Assembly (NCBI RefSeq): GCF_003947435.1
Contig: NZ_RCOS01000137.1
Span: 1 to 64,000, forward strand
Reading direction: 5' to 3'
Source of the DNA: Candidatus Methanodesulfokora washburnensis
GTDB taxonomy: Archaea > Korarchaeota > Korarchaeia > Korarchaeales > Korarchaeaceae
DNA length: 64,000 bases
A program made the translations under genes and the position numbers. Positions 3,355-63,568 of the stretch are shown here, piece by piece. Within the stretch, counting starts at the first letter, position 1. Every line of letters begins with the position of its first letter. The notes under the pieces were generated by a model that was not told the DNA's origin, did not search any database, and worked only from the letters and a program-made list of their open reading frames with translations.

Positions 3355-5037
3355 TCATCCTCCAGTGATCTCAGATTTTTCTATACTGATCTCCCTTTCT
3401 TTCTCAGAAGCTGCTTTTATCATGTCAAGCGGCACTCCGATGACTTCAGCTCTCAGCTCAACAAGTCTCTTAACTATTTCCTCAGTATCGCCTATATGCA
3501 ATATTTTACCGTTTAGCATGAGAGCCGCCCTTTCACAGGTCATTAAAGCGAAATCCATGTCATGAGAGACTATTATTATCGTGGTGCCAAACTCTCTCTT
3601 AATCTTCACCAGACTTTCAGCGACCTCCCTTTTTGTTATGGGATTCATTGTACCGGACGGCTCATCCAGTATGAGTATCCTGGGTTCCCTTATCATAACC
3701 TGAGCTAGTGCAACTCTATGCTTTTCTCCCTCACTTAACTCATCGGCATTTTTCTTTAAAAGTGCTTCTGCCTCTTTTTCACTAAAACCAATGCCTGTAA
3801 GGATATCTATTGCCCTTAATTTGGCAAATTCAGCTGGTAGATTCAACCCTATGCTATCCGTAAGATTGTACAGCACACTTCTGTATGGATACAGGGAGAA
3901 CTCCTGATGGAGAATTCCTATATAGGGCGTAGCCCTTCCTCTTCCCAAGGGTCCAGGCTGTTTCATATCTATCCATTCGTCTCCCACTCTCACAAGTACT
4001 TCACCCTCTGTTGGCTCTGTTATCCCCGCTATTATCCTCGAAAGAGTTGTTTTACCTGAACCGCTAGGTCCAAGTATCCCGAATATTTCGCCCTCATTTA
4101 CTGTGAGCGATACTCCATCTACAGCCTTCACTATACCTCTTGTTATAGAATAGTAATATTTCTTTACATTCTTTAAATTTATTATTTCATTTTTCGATAT
4201 AACTTCTATGCTTATTTTCTTCCTCTCAGGCAATCCAAATTTCTCTAAAACAATCCTTTGAGGCTCTCCTTCGCTCTCAATTCTGCCCTTTTCAAGCCAT
4301 ATAACTCTATTTGAAAGCTCCTGGATTATTTCTGGAAAGTGTGACGTTAGAATCATTGCTTTCTTTCCCTTGACGAAATTTCTGAGTATCTCCACGATCA
4401 ATTGTGTGTTATGAGGATCTAACGTTCCAGTGGGCTCGTCTAAGAGTAGCATGATTGGATCTAGAGCAAGCTGTCTAGCAAGAATTATCCTTTGCTTCTC
4501 ACCTCCGCTCAAATCCCTTGCCGGAGTAAGAGCCCTATGATTCATGTTGACTATCTTTAACAGTTCCATGGCCCTATTGAGGATAATATCACCGTTATAC
4601 ATATCTAGGGAACTCAGTGCCTCTACTACATTCTCAAATGCACTCTTCTCACCGTATAATGCAAAAGTTCTTTGAAGCATTATTCCAATTCTTTTTCTGA
4701 GATTATAGAAAAGTTTTCTATCATCTGTTTTCCATATATCGACCTCTCTATATTCTAATCTCTTTCCGCATCGTGGGCATTTTTCTCCATCCTTAGAAGG
4801 AATATCCAGCCAGTAACAGCTGTTACATGCCGAAACTGAGTAAATAATATTCCCCTCATCAGGCTCATATCCCCTGAAGCCTCTTATTACATGTATGAGC
4901 ACTGATTTGCCGCTGCCACTTTTCCCAAGAATTCCTAATGATTCTCCCTCGCTTAAACTGAAACTTATGTCTTTCAGGACGTATTCCCCTCCAAATTTCT
5001 TGGAAACACCTTTAAGTTGAAGTATTTTCTCTTTCAT
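3355..5037 (-). CDS. atwA: Methyl-coenzyme M reductase system component A2 (AtwA), tandem ABC ATPase with Zn-motif insertion
   Basis: Two ABC domains; insertion [24 protein letters not shown] as in canonical A2; adjacent to mmp3. Confidence 0.9.
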
Positions 5038-5111
5038 CAGAGGTGTGACTATCCCTTAAATTGATAAAGTTTTTCCTAAAAGTTTTAATAACCCTCTATC
5101 AGGGTTACACT

Positions 5112-6623
5112 ATGATGAGGATTAAGCTAAATGGAAAGGAAATAACTGTTCCTGAAGAAAGCAGAATCGAGGAAGTGCTGAAAAGCTGTGGAATTTCTTA
5201 TGATCCACGTTGCCTATTGGCAGTGGTCAGAGGCAGGGGGCCTTCTCAAGTAGCTACAGATAGATACATAATAAAAACTAATAAGGGCAAAATCATGGTA
5301 AAGGTGGATGATAATTTTCTGTGGGAGAAGATTAGGAGAAGCATAAACGGATTGAAAGTAGCTTGGAGGACAAGGAACAGCCTATCAGTAGGTCCCTTTA
5401 GCCTCGATCTCAACTGCTTAAATAAGTCGTATCAATATGAACAGAATAGAATTATTTTAAGTATAGTAGAAGGAAATGGTTATCTAGTTTTCACCCTTAG
5501 CAGAGCACGAATTGAGCATTGCACATTGAATTCAGGCATAGTAGGAAGGGTAATAACAGGCTCGGATGTATTAGGTGCATTGGATGTAGATGATTTCATA
5601 AAAGAGGTGGAGCCAGTCCTTGAGCAAGGATACATTTCTGGTAATATAAAAAGAGCAAGCCTAATGGATGAGGTAATTGATGGCGATGAGATATACTCAG
5701 AGATAAAAATAGATCTAAATACTGAATTACCTTGGGCATGCGAACACGCTCTAATTACCCTAGAGCAAAATAACTCACTTGATGAGGTTTCTGGGACATT
5801 TGTCAGAATATCTGGTGCAATGAGGGCATGGAAAATCGAGGAAAACTCTGGGAAAAGGGTTAGAGGGGCTGTCACAGTGAGGACATCAGGCAAGAGGGAG
5901 GGAGATATCTACATATATAAGAGGGAATGTATGCCCAGCAAGAATCACTCCGTGATAGGCTTTGTAAAATATGGTTTGGAGCTTCTAGAAGTTGCTGAAA
6001 GAGGAGACAAAATCCATATAGTCCTAAATCCGAGAAGAATAAATCTAATTGGCCTTACACAAGTGCAAGCCGGAAATTTACTCGAGAAATTGAATATAAG
6101 GCATGTAAGAGATGGGGATAAATCCGACGATGCGGTTGTAGTCCTCCAATATCCTAAGACGACTTCAGAAATTCTCAAGAAAAAAGAAGTTGCTACATAT
6201 GGAATTGATCAATCTAAAATTGTTAAAATAAAGTTATTTAATGATAAGGCGCCAAAAACATCACTGTACTTCAGAGCTGCTGCAGAGCTTTTTGGAAAGA
6301 GGGTAGGCATTCTCAAAGTATTCTTCAAGACAGACGACTCCGTTATCTTCAAGCCTGATATCTCTTATAAGGACCCATTAGTCCCAGAAAACATACCAAA
6401 GGATTCTGTGAGGCCAGGGGAAATTGGCGTAACCAACATGTCAAGAAAATATGCAGGAATTATTGGAATTCGCTTCACCGAAAGCAAGGAGTTTGGTCCT
6501 ACTGGTGAGCCATTTGAGTCAACTAACATAGTCGGGACTGTCACAGATAACCTCGGAGTACTAATGAATTCAAAGGAGGAGGAGGAAGTATATTTAATGG
6601 AGGTTGATGAAAATGAAAGTTAG
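5112..6623 (+). CDS. Methanogenesis marker protein 3 (Mmp3, UPF0288)
   Basis: MRIKLNGKEITVPEESRIEEVLK N-terminus; GEIGVTNMSRKYAGIIGIRFTESKEFGPTGEPFESTNIVG C-terminus; first gene of the mmp3-6-5-15-17-7 order. The ORF track starts at 5061. Confidence 0.88.
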   Translation: MMRIKLNGKEITVPEESRIEEVLKSCGISYDPRCLLAVVRGRGPSQVATDRYIIKTNKGKIMVKVDDNFLWEKIRRSINGLKVAWRTRNSLSVGPFSLDLNCLNKSYQYEQNRIILSIVEGNGYLVFTLSRARIEHCTLNSGIVGRVITGSDVLGALDVDDFIKEVEPVLEQGYISGNIKRASLMDEVIDGDEIYSEIKIDLNTELPWACEHALITLEQNNSLDEVSGTFVRISGAMRAWKIEENSGKRVRGAVTVRTSGKREGDIYIYKRECMPSKNHSVIGFVKYGLELLEVAERGDKIHIVLNPRRINLIGLTQVQAGNLLEKLNIRHVRDGDKSDDAVVVLQYPKTTSEILKKKEVATYGIDQSKIVKIKLFNDKAPKTSLYFRAAAELFGKRVGILKVFFKTDDSVIFKPDISYKDPLVPENIPKDSVRPGEIGVTNMSRKYAGIIGIRFTESKEFGPTGEPFESTNIVGTVTDNLGVLMNSKEEEEVYLMEVDENES

Positions 6624-42919: not shown

Positions 42920-43633
42920 TCAATGAAGCGAGGCTTTTAAAAAGATTTCCTTCAGCTTTTTGTAGGCGGCTTTCTCCCTGCATCTTGGAATTGCATTTTC
43001 AGAGAAGAATTTAATGAGATCCGCTACCCCTGCAAAGTATGCAAAAGGAATGCCTATTAATGCCTCATTTGGGCCGATATCGGTTGCAATCCTGCAGCCG
43101 TAGCAACCAAAACTTGTATTGATCTTATGCACCTTATAAGGAATTGCGGTGCAATCCAAGCATGCAGCTTGTGTCACTGCTGTGCTTGTCTCAATTCTCT
43201 CCCCTCCAGCTATATTTACACAGGCAAGGAGTAGCCACATTATGCTCTCGACTTCATCCTCCACTATTACAACATCTGGTTCAACAATCGACTCCTCCAG
43301 GGGGAAGAGGTATACATCTTCGATCTCCCCTGGAGAGAATGAAACAGGCTTCTTATACATTCTTGCGCCAATCTCCTTCTCTTTAGCTATTCCTATTCTC
43401 AGTGAGTATTCTCCACTTTTATAGGCTTCTGGTAATGGAGAGAAACCAAAAGTTGCTGCTGCAACAGGGCAACCTATTTCCTCTTTACCCAACAGGATGT
43501 GCTCACCATATCTTGCTCTCATCAACGCTTGGCAGTATCGATGACCTTTAGCCCTTACCGCTGCAACTTCAGCCTTACGAGTGAATATCTTCACACCAAC
43601 AGGGAACGTTCTCAATCCTAATATTCTTCTCAT
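42920..43633 (-). CDS. DUF169-family protein
   Basis: FPVGVKIF, YCQALMRARYGEHILLGKEEIGCPVAAATFGF, CYGCRIATDIGPNEALIGIP. Confidence 0.75.
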   Translation of the reverse strand: MRRILGLRTFPVGVKIFTRKAEVAAVRAKGHRYCQALMRARYGEHILLGKEEIGCPVAAATFGFSPLPEAYKSGEYSLRIGIAKEKEIGARMYKKPVSFSPGEIEDVYLFPLEESIVEPDVVIVEDEVESIMWLLLACVNIAGGERIETSTAVTQAACLDCTAIPYKVHKINTSFGCYGCRIATDIGPNEALIGIPFAYFAGVADLIKFFSENAIPRCREKAAYKKLKEIFLKASLH

Positions 43634-43676
43634 TTCACGGGCTTTTTCCCTTACTTCCTTAAGATCTATATATCAT

Positions 43677-43771
43677 CACCTTACTTATCACGATGCGAGG
43701 ACCAATTTAATAGCTTTCTCCTCTCTTTTTATGGAAAGAGCCGCTCTGGAGTTATAGAACTCACTCGACAA
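43677..43771 (-). repeat. Copy 1 of duplicated promoter/leader region
   Basis: ccttacttatcacgatgcgaggaccaatttaatag...ggaaagagccgctc...ctcactc aligns with 46153..46232. Confidence 0.8.
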
Positions 43772-44891
43772 GCTCATCTAATACCTCAACTAGATCAACT
43801 ACTTTAATCTCTATTCCCTCAGCTTTGGCTGCATCCTTCATATGATACTTGCAGAACGGACAGCAGGATATCAGATACTCTGCTCCAGTTTCCCTAGCCT
43901 CATTTATTCTTATCTTTCCCATGGATAGCGCAAGATCCTTGAACTGCGATTTCACTCCACCGCCAGATCCGCAACAGAAGGAATCTCCTCTATTTCTTTC
44001 CATCTCCACTAAATTGGCGCCCATCGCCCTAATTACCTCCCTAGGCTCTTCATAAACTTTGGCATGCCTTCCCAAGTGACATGGATCATGATACGTTACC
44101 GTAGCATCAAGCTTTCTGGGGCTGATCTTTCCCTCCTTTATGAGCTTGTTGAGGACTTGGGAGGAGTGTAAAACCTCAAAGTTCCATTCATATCCCAGTT
44201 CCTTTGCTATCTTGGGATAATCTAAAAGCAAAGTTCTGTAGCAACCGGCACAGGATGTTATTATTCTCTTCACTCCCCTCTTTCTCCATTCCTCGATATT
44301 CTTCTTGAAGAACTCATATGCTATGTCCCTTTGCCCGGTCCTGAGAAAGGGAGAACCACAGCAGTACTCATATCTTCCTAAATATGCAACCTCAAGACCT
44401 GCTTTATTAAAGAGATTTACAGTGCTTTTAGCTATTTCTGGTGCTCTAAAGCTGGCAGTGCACCCCGCAAAATATATAGTATCTCCACTATCCCTATACT
44501 TGAACCCTCTTATCCATTCCTCTCTTTTCTCCCTTGGCTCTCCATATGGATTATCGAATTTCTCTGCTAGATCTCTTATTCTCTTGTGATGAACTAGTGG
44601 AGCTTTACCATCCTTAACAAGATCATTTCTAACTTTTTCCCACAGATCAACTAAGTTGAGGGAGGTTTGGCAAACCTCTTCACAAGCACCGCATGTTGTG
44701 CATCTGAAGAAATCCTCGACAAGCTCTTGATCGAGCTTTATTACTCCATTCTTTATCCCTCTTAGTGCATAAAGTTTGCCCCTTGGAGAAACGCTTTCCC
44801 ACTTAATCACGGTAAATGCTGGACAAACCCTGCAGTAAAAACACTGGGCACATTTCAGAATTGCATCCTCAACCTCCTTTTCTATTTTCAT
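43761..44891 (-). CDS. Heterodisulfide reductase subunit D-like Fe-S oxidoreductase
   Basis: CAQCFYCRVCP and CTTCGACEEVCQ ferredoxin motifs; CCGSPFLRTGQ and CCGSGGGVKSQF CCG motifs; overlaps GlcD-like gene. Confidence 0.88.
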   Translation of the reverse strand: MKIEKEVEDAILKCAQCFYCRVCPAFTVIKWESVSPRGKLYALRGIKNGVIKLDQELVEDFFRCTTCGACEEVCQTSLNLVDLWEKVRNDLVKDGKAPLVHHKRIRDLAEKFDNPYGEPREKREEWIRGFKYRDSGDTIYFAGCTASFRAPEIAKSTVNLFNKAGLEVAYLGRYEYCCGSPFLRTGQRDIAYEFFKKNIEEWRKRGVKRIITSCAGCYRTLLLDYPKIAKELGYEWNFEVLHSSQVLNKLIKEGKISPRKLDATVTYHDPCHLGRHAKVYEEPREVIRAMGANLVEMERNRGDSFCCGSGGGVKSQFKDLALSMGKIRINEARETGAEYLISCCPFCKYHMKDAAKAEGIEIKVVDLVEVLDELVE

Positions 44892-46707: not shown

Positions 46708-48372
46708 TTACGGAGGTATTATAGGATCTCTCTCGCCTGCCGGCATGAACTCCCTAAGAGCACCTTTAGCAAAGCACTTTCTCGGCTCTACAAAGTCGAA
46801 TTTGAGATGAGGATCAGCAAAAGCAACTTTTACCAATGGATTGACGCACCAAGCATGCCTGCATGCCATGTGTGCAGCAGCCACTATTCCAGCATATTCA
46901 CCTAGGTGGCCGACGTTCATCGCATAGTTCGGGTAATTGGGTCCTCTCAGCTCCAATGGCAGGCCTTCATCACTCCTGTAGGAGAAGGAGTTTGCTGCTC
47001 CCATCTGATCCTGTGCATCATACCCGAAGAATCCCAGCCTTCCCCAGTGCTCCTTGTGGAGTATCTGGGAGAAGTACCATCCATTAACTCCAGCATTGGC
47101 GTCCCCTGTAGCTATAGCGACTCCTATACCTGAAGCTGCAGCAGCTACTGCCGCTCTCTGCGAACCTCCAAAGTGCGTCTCCATTAACGCAGGATACCTT
47201 TCATACTGCTCCAGACTATAAAGAGTGACCTCCGCAGCAATGTCTTCTATCACATCCAGCGATGGCTTGACTTTAGCAAATCCTCCATATTTTGACTTTA
47301 CGTAATCTGCTGCATAGTAACTATAGTCATCGAGAATATTGTCAGTGTAAACTGGAGTTGCATATTGTGTAAACCCGACACCACCAGACATGTATATCCC
47401 GAACCAGAGCTGGTCATATATGACAGAGCCAGCAGCTAGTGTCTCCAGAGCCACTTTCACAGGGTCATCTGGATAAACTCTGCTTGTCTGAACGATATCA
47501 GCCATATAGCCAAATGGCAATCCTCCCGGCTCATTTGGACCTCTGGCTCTTCTCCAAGGCATCAAGGTGGCCATTTCTATTACTTCAGCATGTTTTGCAG
47601 CAAATGCAAACTCTCCTATTGCTGCCTCTCCGGCCATGAGCTTGTATGCATCTATCATGCTCATGCTTATCTGCATAGCAGACCATCTTGCTATAGTTCC
47701 ACCATCGGCTACTCTTCCCACTATTGTGGGTACCCTCATAACCTGCCATAAGGACTTGCCTATTGCCTTCTTAAGAGCCTCAGCCTGCTCGGGTGGGAAC
47801 TGCTTGTTTATGTCTATCAGGAACCTTTTGTCTATTCTGTCTGCGAGCTCGTCATCTCCAGTAAATACCTTGACATAGGAGTCCTCAACAAGCGCAGGGT
47901 GAATCTCAACCATATGCTCTTGGACAACAGCACCTCCTGGTAATGCATGATTCAGTATCTCAAGGTAATGGTTTATGGACTCGGGAGTCACCTCCTTGCC
48001 CAGCCTTTTCTCTAGGATCATGTGAGGTGCATCAAGGCCGACTATAACGGTCCTTCTTATGTCGTCCCACAGCTGTTGCATTGCTGCATTGTTTATAAAG
48101 TGAAGATCATCTCCCTCCACATATACCCCAGTTCCAGAAACTTCATAAGGCATCAGAACTCTTTGGCCAAGAGGTACCCCTAGATGAAGCTCAGGATTGT
48201 ATCCCGGTATTCCTCTCTCTTTAGCCATCTTCTGAGCATATTCATAGAATTCCGTTTTTCTCTTTGATTGTCTCCATGCCCCGAATACATAGAACTGGGT
48301 GGATCTTTCTGCAGGATCCTCCTTAAATTTCTTTCTCAGGGCATCTATAAACAACTTCTTCTTCTCACTCAT
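46708..48372 (-). CDS. mcrA: Methyl-coenzyme M reductase alpha subunit
   Basis: [111 protein letters not shown]. Confidence 0.99.
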
Positions 48373-59738: not shown

Positions 59739-60062
59739 TTGACCACTAGTTATGTTGTGAATTCTGGACCATGTGCTCATAAAACTTGCGTCGAAGCTGA
59801 GCTTGTGCAAGATATTATAAAGCTTCGTATTACCTCGACTTGTCCCCATATTCAGAAATATGCAGAAAAGCTGAAGGAAATCAGCATTAAGGATATATCA
59901 AAACCTATGTCAGATAATCCAGCTTATTCATTAGCACGCGATCTTACAGTAAACTGTGCAGTCCCCTGTGCCGTCTTATATGCCTGTTGGGCTGAAGCTG
60001 GATTGATTTCCAAAAACTTGCTGAAGCAGCATCCAACTGTAACAATAGAATATAAAGAATAA
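59739..60062 (+). CDS. DUF6951-like small Cys-rich protein
   Basis: Paralog of 63242..63568 (ITSTCPHIQKYAEKL...SKPMSDNPAYSLA...CAVPCAVLYACWAEAGLISKNLLKQHPTVTIEYKE). Confidence 0.65.
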   Translation: MTTSYVVNSGPCAHKTCVEAELVQDIIKLRITSTCPHIQKYAEKLKEISIKDISKPMSDNPAYSLARDLTVNCAVPCAVLYACWAEAGLISKNLLKQHPTVTIEYKE

Positions 60063-60087: not shown

Positions 60088-62067
60088 CTACGCCTTGAGC
60101 TCGAGTGCCCGCTTTATCTCCGGATGGGTTCCCAACCTTATTATCAGTTCAATGGTCTCTGGGAATCTCTTTAGATCCTTATGGGGAAGATACATCGAGG
60201 ATACATACTCGTCGTTGAACTTTGGATATGCAGCTATCTCAAAGTGCCTTATTCTTCCCTCCTTTATGGCCTTAGTTATATATTCCCTCTCATCCACAGA
60301 GATGAGAGCCATTCGTGCCCCAGTTCCAGCGGAATTTCCGACGAACTTGATTCTATCTATGGGAACTTCAGGGTACATCCCTATCGTCCTCGCGCTCTCT
60401 GGATCGATATAATTTCCGAAGGCACCTACAACATAAAGGACATTTATGTCCTTCTCTGTCACATTGTGGAGCTTGCACAAAATTGATGCTACTGCATGTA
60501 TTGCAGCCTTCGCCTTCTGGATCTCCCTGACATCTTTCTGTGTAAACACTATATCATGCTCCCCCGATGCCGTCTCCTCCTTCCATGCAATAACATACTC
60601 CCATCCATCAGGTCCAAGTCTTATTCTCCTTGTCCTTTCGGCCAGCTCTTTGTTGAAGCGCCCGCTCCAATCTATTATCCCTGACTTGAAGAGCTCTGCC
60701 ATTATATCCACAATTCCGGAGCCACAAATTCCAACAGGCTTTGTATCGCCTATAACCCTGTATGACGGCTCAAGCGTCTCGGGATCTATTGCTATCTTCT
60801 CTATTGCGCCATCAGCTGCTCTCATACCGTATTTGATCATCATTCCCTCGAAGGCAGGCCCTGAAGCACATGAACTATACCACACACCCGTGGCCTTACA
60901 GCCTATCCCTATTTCAGTGTTTGTTCCAACATCGATGCACATTCCAAGCTTCTCACTATCAAATAGTTTTGTAACAATCATATTCGCAACGTTATCTGCA
61001 CCCACCCATCCGCCTATCGTATCCAGAAAGTATAGATTGGCCCTTGGATGGCATTTGATTCCCGCTTCCCTAGCTGGCAGGTTCACTCCGCCCATTCTTG
61101 GAGGCTGAAATGGTGATTTGGCAACGAATTCAGGCCATATCTTGAGGAAGTACATCATCATCGCGGTGTTTCCAACAAAAACTGTCTCATATATCTCCTC
61201 CGGCTTGACTCCAGCTTTTTCGCAGCACTCCTCTATCATCTCATTTATGCCATTGACAACTGCTTTTTGGAGATCCTCAAGACCTTTCCAGCCGTTGAGC
61301 AGGACATATGTCAACCTTGTCAGGATATCCTCGCCATATGATATTTGGGGGTTCATCCTTGCAGCTACTGAAAGTACTTTTCCTGTGTTCAGATCCATTA
61401 GAAATCCGGCTAGTTTTGTGCTGCCTATATCGCAGGCAAAGCCAAAGCACCTGTTCGTTGTATCACCGGGTTCTACATCTATTATTGTATTTTTCCATAC
61501 AGTTACCGTGATCTTCCAGTTTGAATCTCTTAGCACTTTTGGCAGAAAGCGAAGAACTTCATAGTGAAAATCCACATCAAGCAAATTGTAATGCTGGGCT
61601 AGTGCTTTTATCACCATTTCATCGTCGAATGTTGCATTTTCTAATGTAGGTGGACTCATTTCAATGAAATATTTTCGCACAGCTGGGTTGAAACGCATCA
61701 CAGGAACTTCAAAGCCTTCTGTCTGAAGACGCTGCTTGCCGACCCTGCTCCTCTCTGGAACAAGTACCAAAACCTCACATGGAGCAAATATCTTAGCACA
61801 ACAGGCAAGCCTATAGCCAGCTTCGATCTCCTCTTTCGTTAGGAATTTAAGCTCTGAGGGATCTGCAGGGCTTAAATAATCACTGCCTTTTACGATCTTA
61901 ACCTTGCATTTCCCGCACAAGCCTCTTCCACCGCATACTGATGAGATATCAACCCCTAGCTCTTTTGCGGCATCGAGTATGCTTGTCCCCTTTTTAAAAG
62001 AGCCCCTTCTCCCATGAGGCTGGAAAATTACCATCGCATCATCTTCATGATCCCTTCTTTCAAACAT
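60088..62067 (-). CDS. RACo-type ATP-dependent corrinoid reductive activator (2Fe-2S ferredoxin + ASKHA domain)
   Basis: CGGRGLCGKCKVKI 2Fe-2S motif; FACDIGSTKLAGFLMDLNTG; MCIDVGTNTEIGIG; GSGIVDIMAELFKSGIID. Confidence 0.9.
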   Translation of the reverse strand: MFERRDHEDDAMVIFQPHGRRGSFKKGTSILDAAKELGVDISSVCGGRGLCGKCKVKIVKGSDYLSPADPSELKFLTKEEIEAGYRLACCAKIFAPCEVLVLVPERSRVGKQRLQTEGFEVPVMRFNPAVRKYFIEMSPPTLENATFDDEMVIKALAQHYNLLDVDFHYEVLRFLPKVLRDSNWKITVTVWKNTIIDVEPGDTTNRCFGFACDIGSTKLAGFLMDLNTGKVLSVAARMNPQISYGEDILTRLTYVLLNGWKGLEDLQKAVVNGINEMIEECCEKAGVKPEEIYETVFVGNTAMMMYFLKIWPEFVAKSPFQPPRMGGVNLPAREAGIKCHPRANLYFLDTIGGWVGADNVANMIVTKLFDSEKLGMCIDVGTNTEIGIGCKATGVWYSSCASGPAFEGMMIKYGMRAADGAIEKIAIDPETLEPSYRVIGDTKPVGICGSGIVDIMAELFKSGIIDWSGRFNKELAERTRRIRLGPDGWEYVIAWKEETASGEHDIVFTQKDVREIQKAKAAIHAVASILCKLHNVTEKDINVLYVVGAFGNYIDPESARTIGMYPEVPIDRIKFVGNSAGTGARMALISVDEREYITKAIKEGRIRHFEIAAYPKFNDEYVSSMYLPHKDLKRFPETIELIIRLGTHPEIKRALELKA

Positions 62068-62154: not shown

Positions 62155-63168
62155 TCACTTGATGATATACTTTTGAGCTTCTTCTCTGGAGAAGGGCTCT
62201 GCTTCTATGAGTTCATCGAAGCCATTTTTGCTCCAATACCTCACTTTAGCCTTTTCTCCTCGTGGAACTTTGGAATATGAGGCTATAATCGAGGCTGCTT
62301 TTTTCAAGTAATCCTCCTTTAAAACACCAAGATAGACGCCGATAGGCCCCTTAAGCCCAACTACATTGAAGATAATGTCATCTCCTCCTATAAGCTCGAT
62401 TATTTTTCTATTTTCATTTTCATTTCTTCCTATGACTATCTTGCAGTCATTTTCTAGGCGAAAATGTCTGCCCAGCTTGAGAAGCAAGAAATCCTTTAAA
62501 GTGAAATCAGGGTTGTATTTCCTCATGTCATTGAATCTTCTTGCAAACGCAGGATCTGTTAAAATGCAACCACCGGCAGGCTGAAGAAAGGAGGATATAC
62601 CGAGGTTCCTTGCAAGCTCTAGCTGTCTTTTCCTGCTCCTCCCTCTTATGTCCAGAAGATCCTCGGTTATTGCTCTAGTCATAAGGCTTCCCTTTCTGGA
62701 TATTGATGAGGGAAGCAGAGCGTATGAAGTAATAATGAAGAACGTTAAAAAGCTGAATATAAAAATTAGGTTCGTGAACATCCTTGATGATTATCTGCCA
62801 CTTCTAAAAAATCCAAAATATGGATTTGGAAGTGCTGTGAACCCGTGCATTGACTGCAAGATCCTGATGCTGAAAATAGCAAAGAAGGTCATGGAGGAGG
62901 AAGGAGCTGACTTCGTAGTTACAGGGGATGTTGTGGATGAGAGGCCCTTCTCTCAAAGAAGAAGGGTACTCAGCATTGTGGATAGAGAAGCTGGAGTTGA
63001 GGGGCTAGTTCTCAGACCCCTCTCCGGAAAGCTTCTGCCTCCCACAGTTCCGGAGAAAGCTGGCCTGATAAGGAGGTCCACTCCTACACGCCTCATGATG
63101 TGCAGAGCTAGGGTACTGTCCAGTCCTCCTGAATAGAGGACAATCCCTTTTGCCTTCTTCTGCATCAC
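62155..63168 (-). pseudogene. PP-loop (MnmA/ThiI-like) ATPase gene with inverted central segment
   Basis: Minus N-part KAKGIVLYSGGLDSTLALHIMRRVGVDL; plus central RLPFLDIDEGSRAYEV...NPCIDCKILMLKIAKK...PEKAGLI; minus C-part TRAITEDLLDIRGRSRKRQLELAR...KIVIGRNENENRKIIELI. N- and C-parts share one frame. Confidence 0.88.
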
Positions 63169-63241
63169 CTTATCAACTAGTAAGATCTATAAATCTTACC
63201 GGAGATTGACTAAATTTTTAAAAAGGATAAGTCAGCTTCCT

Positions 63242-63568
63242 ATGACCACGACATTTACAATTACATTCGAGAGGAAATGCTTTTCCCGCATTACGGCAGA
63301 GCTTGAGCGGAATGATCAGATAAGAATCAGCATAGCATCCACATGCCCTTCCGCCGAGCTTTTGGGTAAAAGGATAAATAAGATCAAGAAAAAGGATCTA
63401 TTGAAGCCGATTCATGAAAACCCGGTATGTATAACAGCAAGCGATATGGTGTGCACGGCTTGCGTCATACCTTTAGTCATAGTGAATGCCTGCTGGGTCG
63501 AGACAAAGCTGATCCCGAGAAGTATGTTCGAACAACATTCAACTATAACAATAAAATTTGAATCTTGA
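63242..63568 (+). CDS. DUF6951-like small Cys-rich protein (paralog)
   Basis: MTTTFTITFERKCFSRITAEL...IASTCPSAELLGKR...KPIHENPVCITASDMVCTACVIPLVIVNACWVETKLIPRSMFEQHSTITIKFE; the ORF track starts at 63206. Confidence 0.65.
   Translation: MTTTFTITFERKCFSRITAELERNDQIRISIASTCPSAELLGKRINKIKKKDLLKPIHENPVCITASDMVCTACVIPLVIVNACWVETKLIPRSMFEQHSTITIKFES

Follow-up and report, generated by a model that had tools for sequence, protein, structure and literature searches.

Segments flipped within a coding region are known from invertons, intragenic ones included, i.e., reversible switches whose boundaries carry inverted repeats of 10-40 nt (PMC11892184). Inverted sequence also arises in multiple displacement amplification (MDA), where inverted joins made up 85% of 475 chimeras; these chimeras join sequences less than 10 kb apart in inverted orientation and carry intervening deletions (PMC1855051). 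At the protein level, the closest described systems are the tRNA 4-thiouridine synthase ThiI (PDB 2c5s, 4kr6) and MnmA, whose PP-loop ATPase domain is related in sequence to that of the gene studied here. The metabolism of the host, Ca. Methanodesulfokora (Methanodesulfokores) washburnensis of the Korarchaeia, has been described (PMC10469681). The species has also been recovered anew by metagenomics, with enrichment in mesocosms at Yellowstone (PMC10033731).

Like an intragenic inverton, the locus reported here has a short DNA segment flipped within a coding region. Unlike the invertons, however, it has no flanking repeats of about 10-40 nt at its two ends, no recombinase match on its contig, and only a single orientation in the assembly. 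With the MDA chimeras it shares the inverted joining of sequences that lie less than 10 kb from each other; whereas those show an intervening deletion at a single join, comparison with 32 orthologs reveals two reciprocal joins here, at which nothing was lost.

A PP-loop gene in three pieces

The window, i.e., the whole stretch of 64,000 nucleotides analyzed, comprises bases 1-64000 of contig C123 (71,968 bp) in a draft assembly of 2.94 Mb and 179 contigs, which is estimated to be 98.2% complete with 5.5% contamination. One gene in it, encoding a PP-loop ATPase that ends in an RNA-binding NFACT-R_2 domain, has its middle flipped. The gene, its pieces and its neighbors are the following:

62155..63168, minus strand: full extent of the broken gene; 337 codons and a stop once the middle is re-inverted; GTG start
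63077..63168, minus strand: N-terminal piece, codons 1 to ~30 (VMQKKAKGIVLYSGGLDSTLALHIMRRVG..), original orientation; from the ORF and ortholog alignment
62665..63076, plus strand: flipped middle, 412 bp; from ortholog alignment, breakpoint enumeration and codon-usage parse
62155..62664, minus strand: C-terminal piece (..EDLLDIRGRSRKRQLELA..) to the stop, NFACT-R_2, original orientation; from PF18297 and alignment
60088..62067, minus strand: RACo-type corrinoid-protein reductive activator, intact, downstream on the same strand; PF14574/PF17651/PF17650
63206..63568, plus strand: DUF6951 small protein, intact, upstream and divergent; PF22263

As assembled, the coding sequence is spread over two strands. 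The N-terminus is borne by a minus-strand ORF (62953-63168) that encodes 31 aa of the protein and then runs antisense, the middle by plus 62648-63136, and the C-terminus by minus 62155-62781. The split cuts the PP-loop domain internally, and the flipped middle encodes the remaining PP-loop/ThiI-like domain on the opposite strand. One continuous open frame, a trait of the PP-loop + NFACT-R_2 family, is obtained only when the middle is re-inverted in silico, which yields a single frame of 1014 nt and a protein of 337 aa; the chance of such a length staying open in one given frame is approximately 0.0005. A first-pass annotation of this DNA had already read the three ORFs on alternating strands as parts of one protein, and had described the continuous frame. 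We could reproduce the latter, and the ORFs, the Pfam matches of the pieces, the re-inversion and the ortholog alignment agree on the former.

Among 151 genomes, all 35 matches, which come from another phylum, are single open frames without internal stops. 32 intact orthologs align without gaps over both junctions of the re-inverted protein, and the comparison, which had been proposed as a check, found all orthologs intact, uninterrupted and in one orientation. The ortholog L035 (archaeal MAG CALHLD010000005.1), for example, is an intact PP-loop + NFACT-R_2 protein with 52% identity. Proteins of this type share length, domain order and the motifs SGGLDS, NPCxDC and AGGC, and are gap-free at the re-inverted junctions; they are encoded by an uninterrupted frame, whereas the washburnensis gene has its middle 412 bp inverted. 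The three-piece arrangement was seen in no relative found. No full-length relative of the broken gene was found in the other genomes searched of its own phylum, and two genomes of the same genus gave no match to it or to the neighboring RACo gene.

Protein family and genomic context

Taken separately, the three pieces give a weak PP-loop match (E 0.0027), a ThiI match (E 1.5e-4) and an NFACT-R_2 match covering the full profile (PF18297, 1-104/104, E 6.6e-23) in Pfam. In the joined protein, ThiI (PF02568, residues 6-148) improves to E 2.5e-8, accompanied by NFACT-R_2 at E 1.7e-22 and PF03054 (MnmA) at E 9e-5. The N-terminal piece (minus 63077-63168) carries the PP-loop signature SGGxDS in the form SGGLDS; NPCxDC and AGGC are the conserved cysteine motifs of the family. 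The search against PP-loop thiolation families, likewise proposed beforehand, relates the 337-aa protein to ThiI and MnmA, and the ThiI structure 2c5s matches the ortholog L035 at E 3e-7. However, the re-inverted protein scores 37.7 bits, far under the NCBIfam equivalog cut-off of 264.5 bits for ThiI, and Pfam reports no THUMP domain in it, NFACT-R_2 being present instead. Identity as ThiI itself is rejected on these grounds. Judging from its relation to ThiI and MnmA, the gene product is probably a tRNA sulfur-transfer (thiolation) enzyme.

Two small DUF6951 paralogues (59739-60062 and 63206-63568, both plus) enclose the RACo gene together with the broken PP-loop gene. The gene content of C123 includes mcrA, mtaB, an mtaC-like corrinoid protein, two RACo proteins and URO-D methyltransferase-type proteins; these genes, at 47035-47415 and 60088-70685, make up a methanol-dependent methanogenesis set. 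On contig C168, two adjacent sulfite-reductase-type genes (PF03460) are located at 43377-44645. The mcr and dsr-type genes are consistent with a methanogenic, sulfite-reducing member of the Korarchaeia. The assembly size of 2.94 Mb, against 0.7-1.9 Mb in the listed family relatives, points either to a genome that is really larger or to a bin of mixed content.

Breakpoints and state of the gene

The breakpoints 62680 and 63073, given by the first-pass annotation, had to be revised. Compared with the orthologs, they leave the joined protein 4 residues short at the first junction and with 4 surplus residues at the second, and thus place twelve bases on the wrong side; according to the ortholog alignment, the left end is about 12-15 bases off and the right end 0-3. 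Enumeration of in-frame breakpoints with the right spacing gave four solutions, 62665-62668 paired with 63073-63076, which abolish both the gap and the insert, while one base beyond them a stop codon appears. Each end of the segment is therefore given with an uncertainty of up to 3 bp. The best solution, 62665/63076, produces the junctions GVEVIALVIRLPF and AGLIRREDLLDIRG, which are closest to the pattern of the 32 orthologs: G-x-[DE]-V-x-[AG] for the first junction; for the second, an R that hardly varies, with E, S, K or D as the usual next residue. A homology-free Viterbi parse based on codon usage lets plus-strand coding stop at 63076 and, after re-inversion (at 62668/63073), returns one minus-strand coding run, 62176-63177.

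The joints are blunt and balanced, with zero residues gained or lost at either junction relative to the 32 orthologs. Within 60 bp of the ends, no inverted repeats of at least 7 bp were found, the longest match being 6 bp and out of register; the earlier observation that a long inverted repeat is lacking holds at this resolution. The ATAAGG direct repeat, formerly assigned to the breakpoints, does exist (62681 and 63068), but is not a breakpoint feature: both copies lie within the corrected segment and are in direct orientation, which rules them out as mediators of the inversion.

Not a single stop interrupts the 337 re-inverted codons. Of the 52 invariant columns, defined as identical in at least 97% of the other sequences, two are changed, both conservatively (E119D, I136V). 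Under random substitution, a stop is expected with a probability of 95% once divergence reaches about 7%; since no stop has accumulated, the event lies below roughly 7% neutral divergence. Consequently, the flip is either evolutionarily recent or absent from the organism's DNA. Translation from the native start now gives 31 residues of the protein, after which it runs through antisense sequence to a stop; the gene is thus broken, and at best an internal start could still yield the NFACT-R_2 part.

Origin of the flipped segment

The flip site lies 8.8 kb inside contig C123. The assembly contains the gene once, in one orientation; a second copy was not found. No N bases occur in the 344 kb sampled, C123 included. 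A codon-usage scan of 661 kb, drawn from 31 stretches or contigs and equal to 22% of the assembly, revealed no second flip, so the assembler did not flip segments routinely. The other flip candidates inspected turned out to be ordinary genes, low-complexity stretches or TnpB genes, among the latter one inserted in an AlbA_2-like gene (C30) and one beside a gene (C135). The C30 case (L043, 5107-6590) is a real transposon insertion and offers a contrast: an IS605-type TnpB (5110-6369, plus) is flanked by the halves of an AlbA_2/Schlafen-like gene (6201-6593 and 4731-5033, both minus), both names being assigned by sequence reading.

Three options had been put forward by the first-pass annotation, of which natural inversion and assembly error both still stand, while the phase switch finds no support. 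A reversible intragenic switch turning a tRNA-modifying enzyme on and off would account for the segment being clean, balanced and undecayed, as an OFF state would be, and serine and tyrosine recombinases are encoded on other contigs of the genome. We nevertheless hold it to be very improbable: inverted repeats of at least 7 bp are absent at the ends, resolvase and integrase matches are confined to those other contigs, and the orthologs are all intact in one orientation. C123 itself has zero recombinase family matches, as the earlier remark on the lack of a recombinase gene nearby had indicated. An even smaller chance is given to a repeat-free intragenic switch that would toggle a tRNA sulfur-modification enzyme in an uncultured methanogenic archaeon by means of a recombinase that is encoded elsewhere in the genome and would act without obvious inverted repeats. 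That the pieces are three separate functional genes, or include a plus-strand gene of its own, and merely resemble one split protein could be argued from every piece being open (71-208 aa). However, this reading is refuted by the ortholog alignment, in which the pieces are consecutive, non-overlapping and ordered parts of one family; the PP-loop domain is cut inside, the codon-usage parse merges the pieces into one gene after re-inversion, and no relative found shares the arrangement, so that its probability is close to nil.

More weight, if somewhat short of an even chance, is due to an artefact in which a unitig of about 412 bp was misoriented, or chimeric molecules were assembled, and the organism's own gene is intact. 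It would explain why decay is absent from all three pieces and why every known relative is intact; the assembly is a draft of 179 contigs, and inverted joins are the commonest type of MDA chimera. Against it stand the two reciprocal joins without deletion, the lack of an inverted repeat that would offer a de Bruijn assembler the typical route to flipping a segment, the absence of N gaps from the sample, and the absence of any further such flip across the 22% of the assembly that was scanned. A unitig misplaced with exact ends is possible. We give slightly better than even chances to a single recent loss-of-function micro-inversion in the organism's DNA, which would not be a programmed switch. 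The 412 bp (62665..63076) would have been inverted once, in a balanced and essentially blunt manner, leaving the gene in three pieces; it may have arisen from two breaks whose ends were joined the other way round without homology, and the inversion would be recent, present in the organism's DNA, and inactivating. Both junctions share one pair of cut points to within 3 bp, with no gain or loss, which argues for one balanced event: a reciprocal event predicts such sharing, unlike two independent chimeric joins. The absence of inverted repeats of at least 7 bp near the ends, moreover, takes away the usual basis for both site-specific inversion and repeat-driven misassembly. Counting against a natural inversion, a decay-free gene is also expected from an assembly error; furthermore, no Ku homologue was found, so there is no evident route by classical end joining to a blunt inversion. 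Altogether, the evidence leans towards a genuine one-off inversion rather than a mistake of the assembly.

Whichever origin applies, automatic annotation would report fragments at this locus that do not correspond to real genes. If the flip is an artefact, a real gene has been split into false ORFs by a local inversion that is missed by checks limited to repeats, N gaps or contig ends. If the flip resides in the DNA of this archaeon, it would represent a clean, repeat-free micro-inversion in a host without detectable Ku, and a tRNA-modification gene observed shortly after its disruption and ahead of decay.
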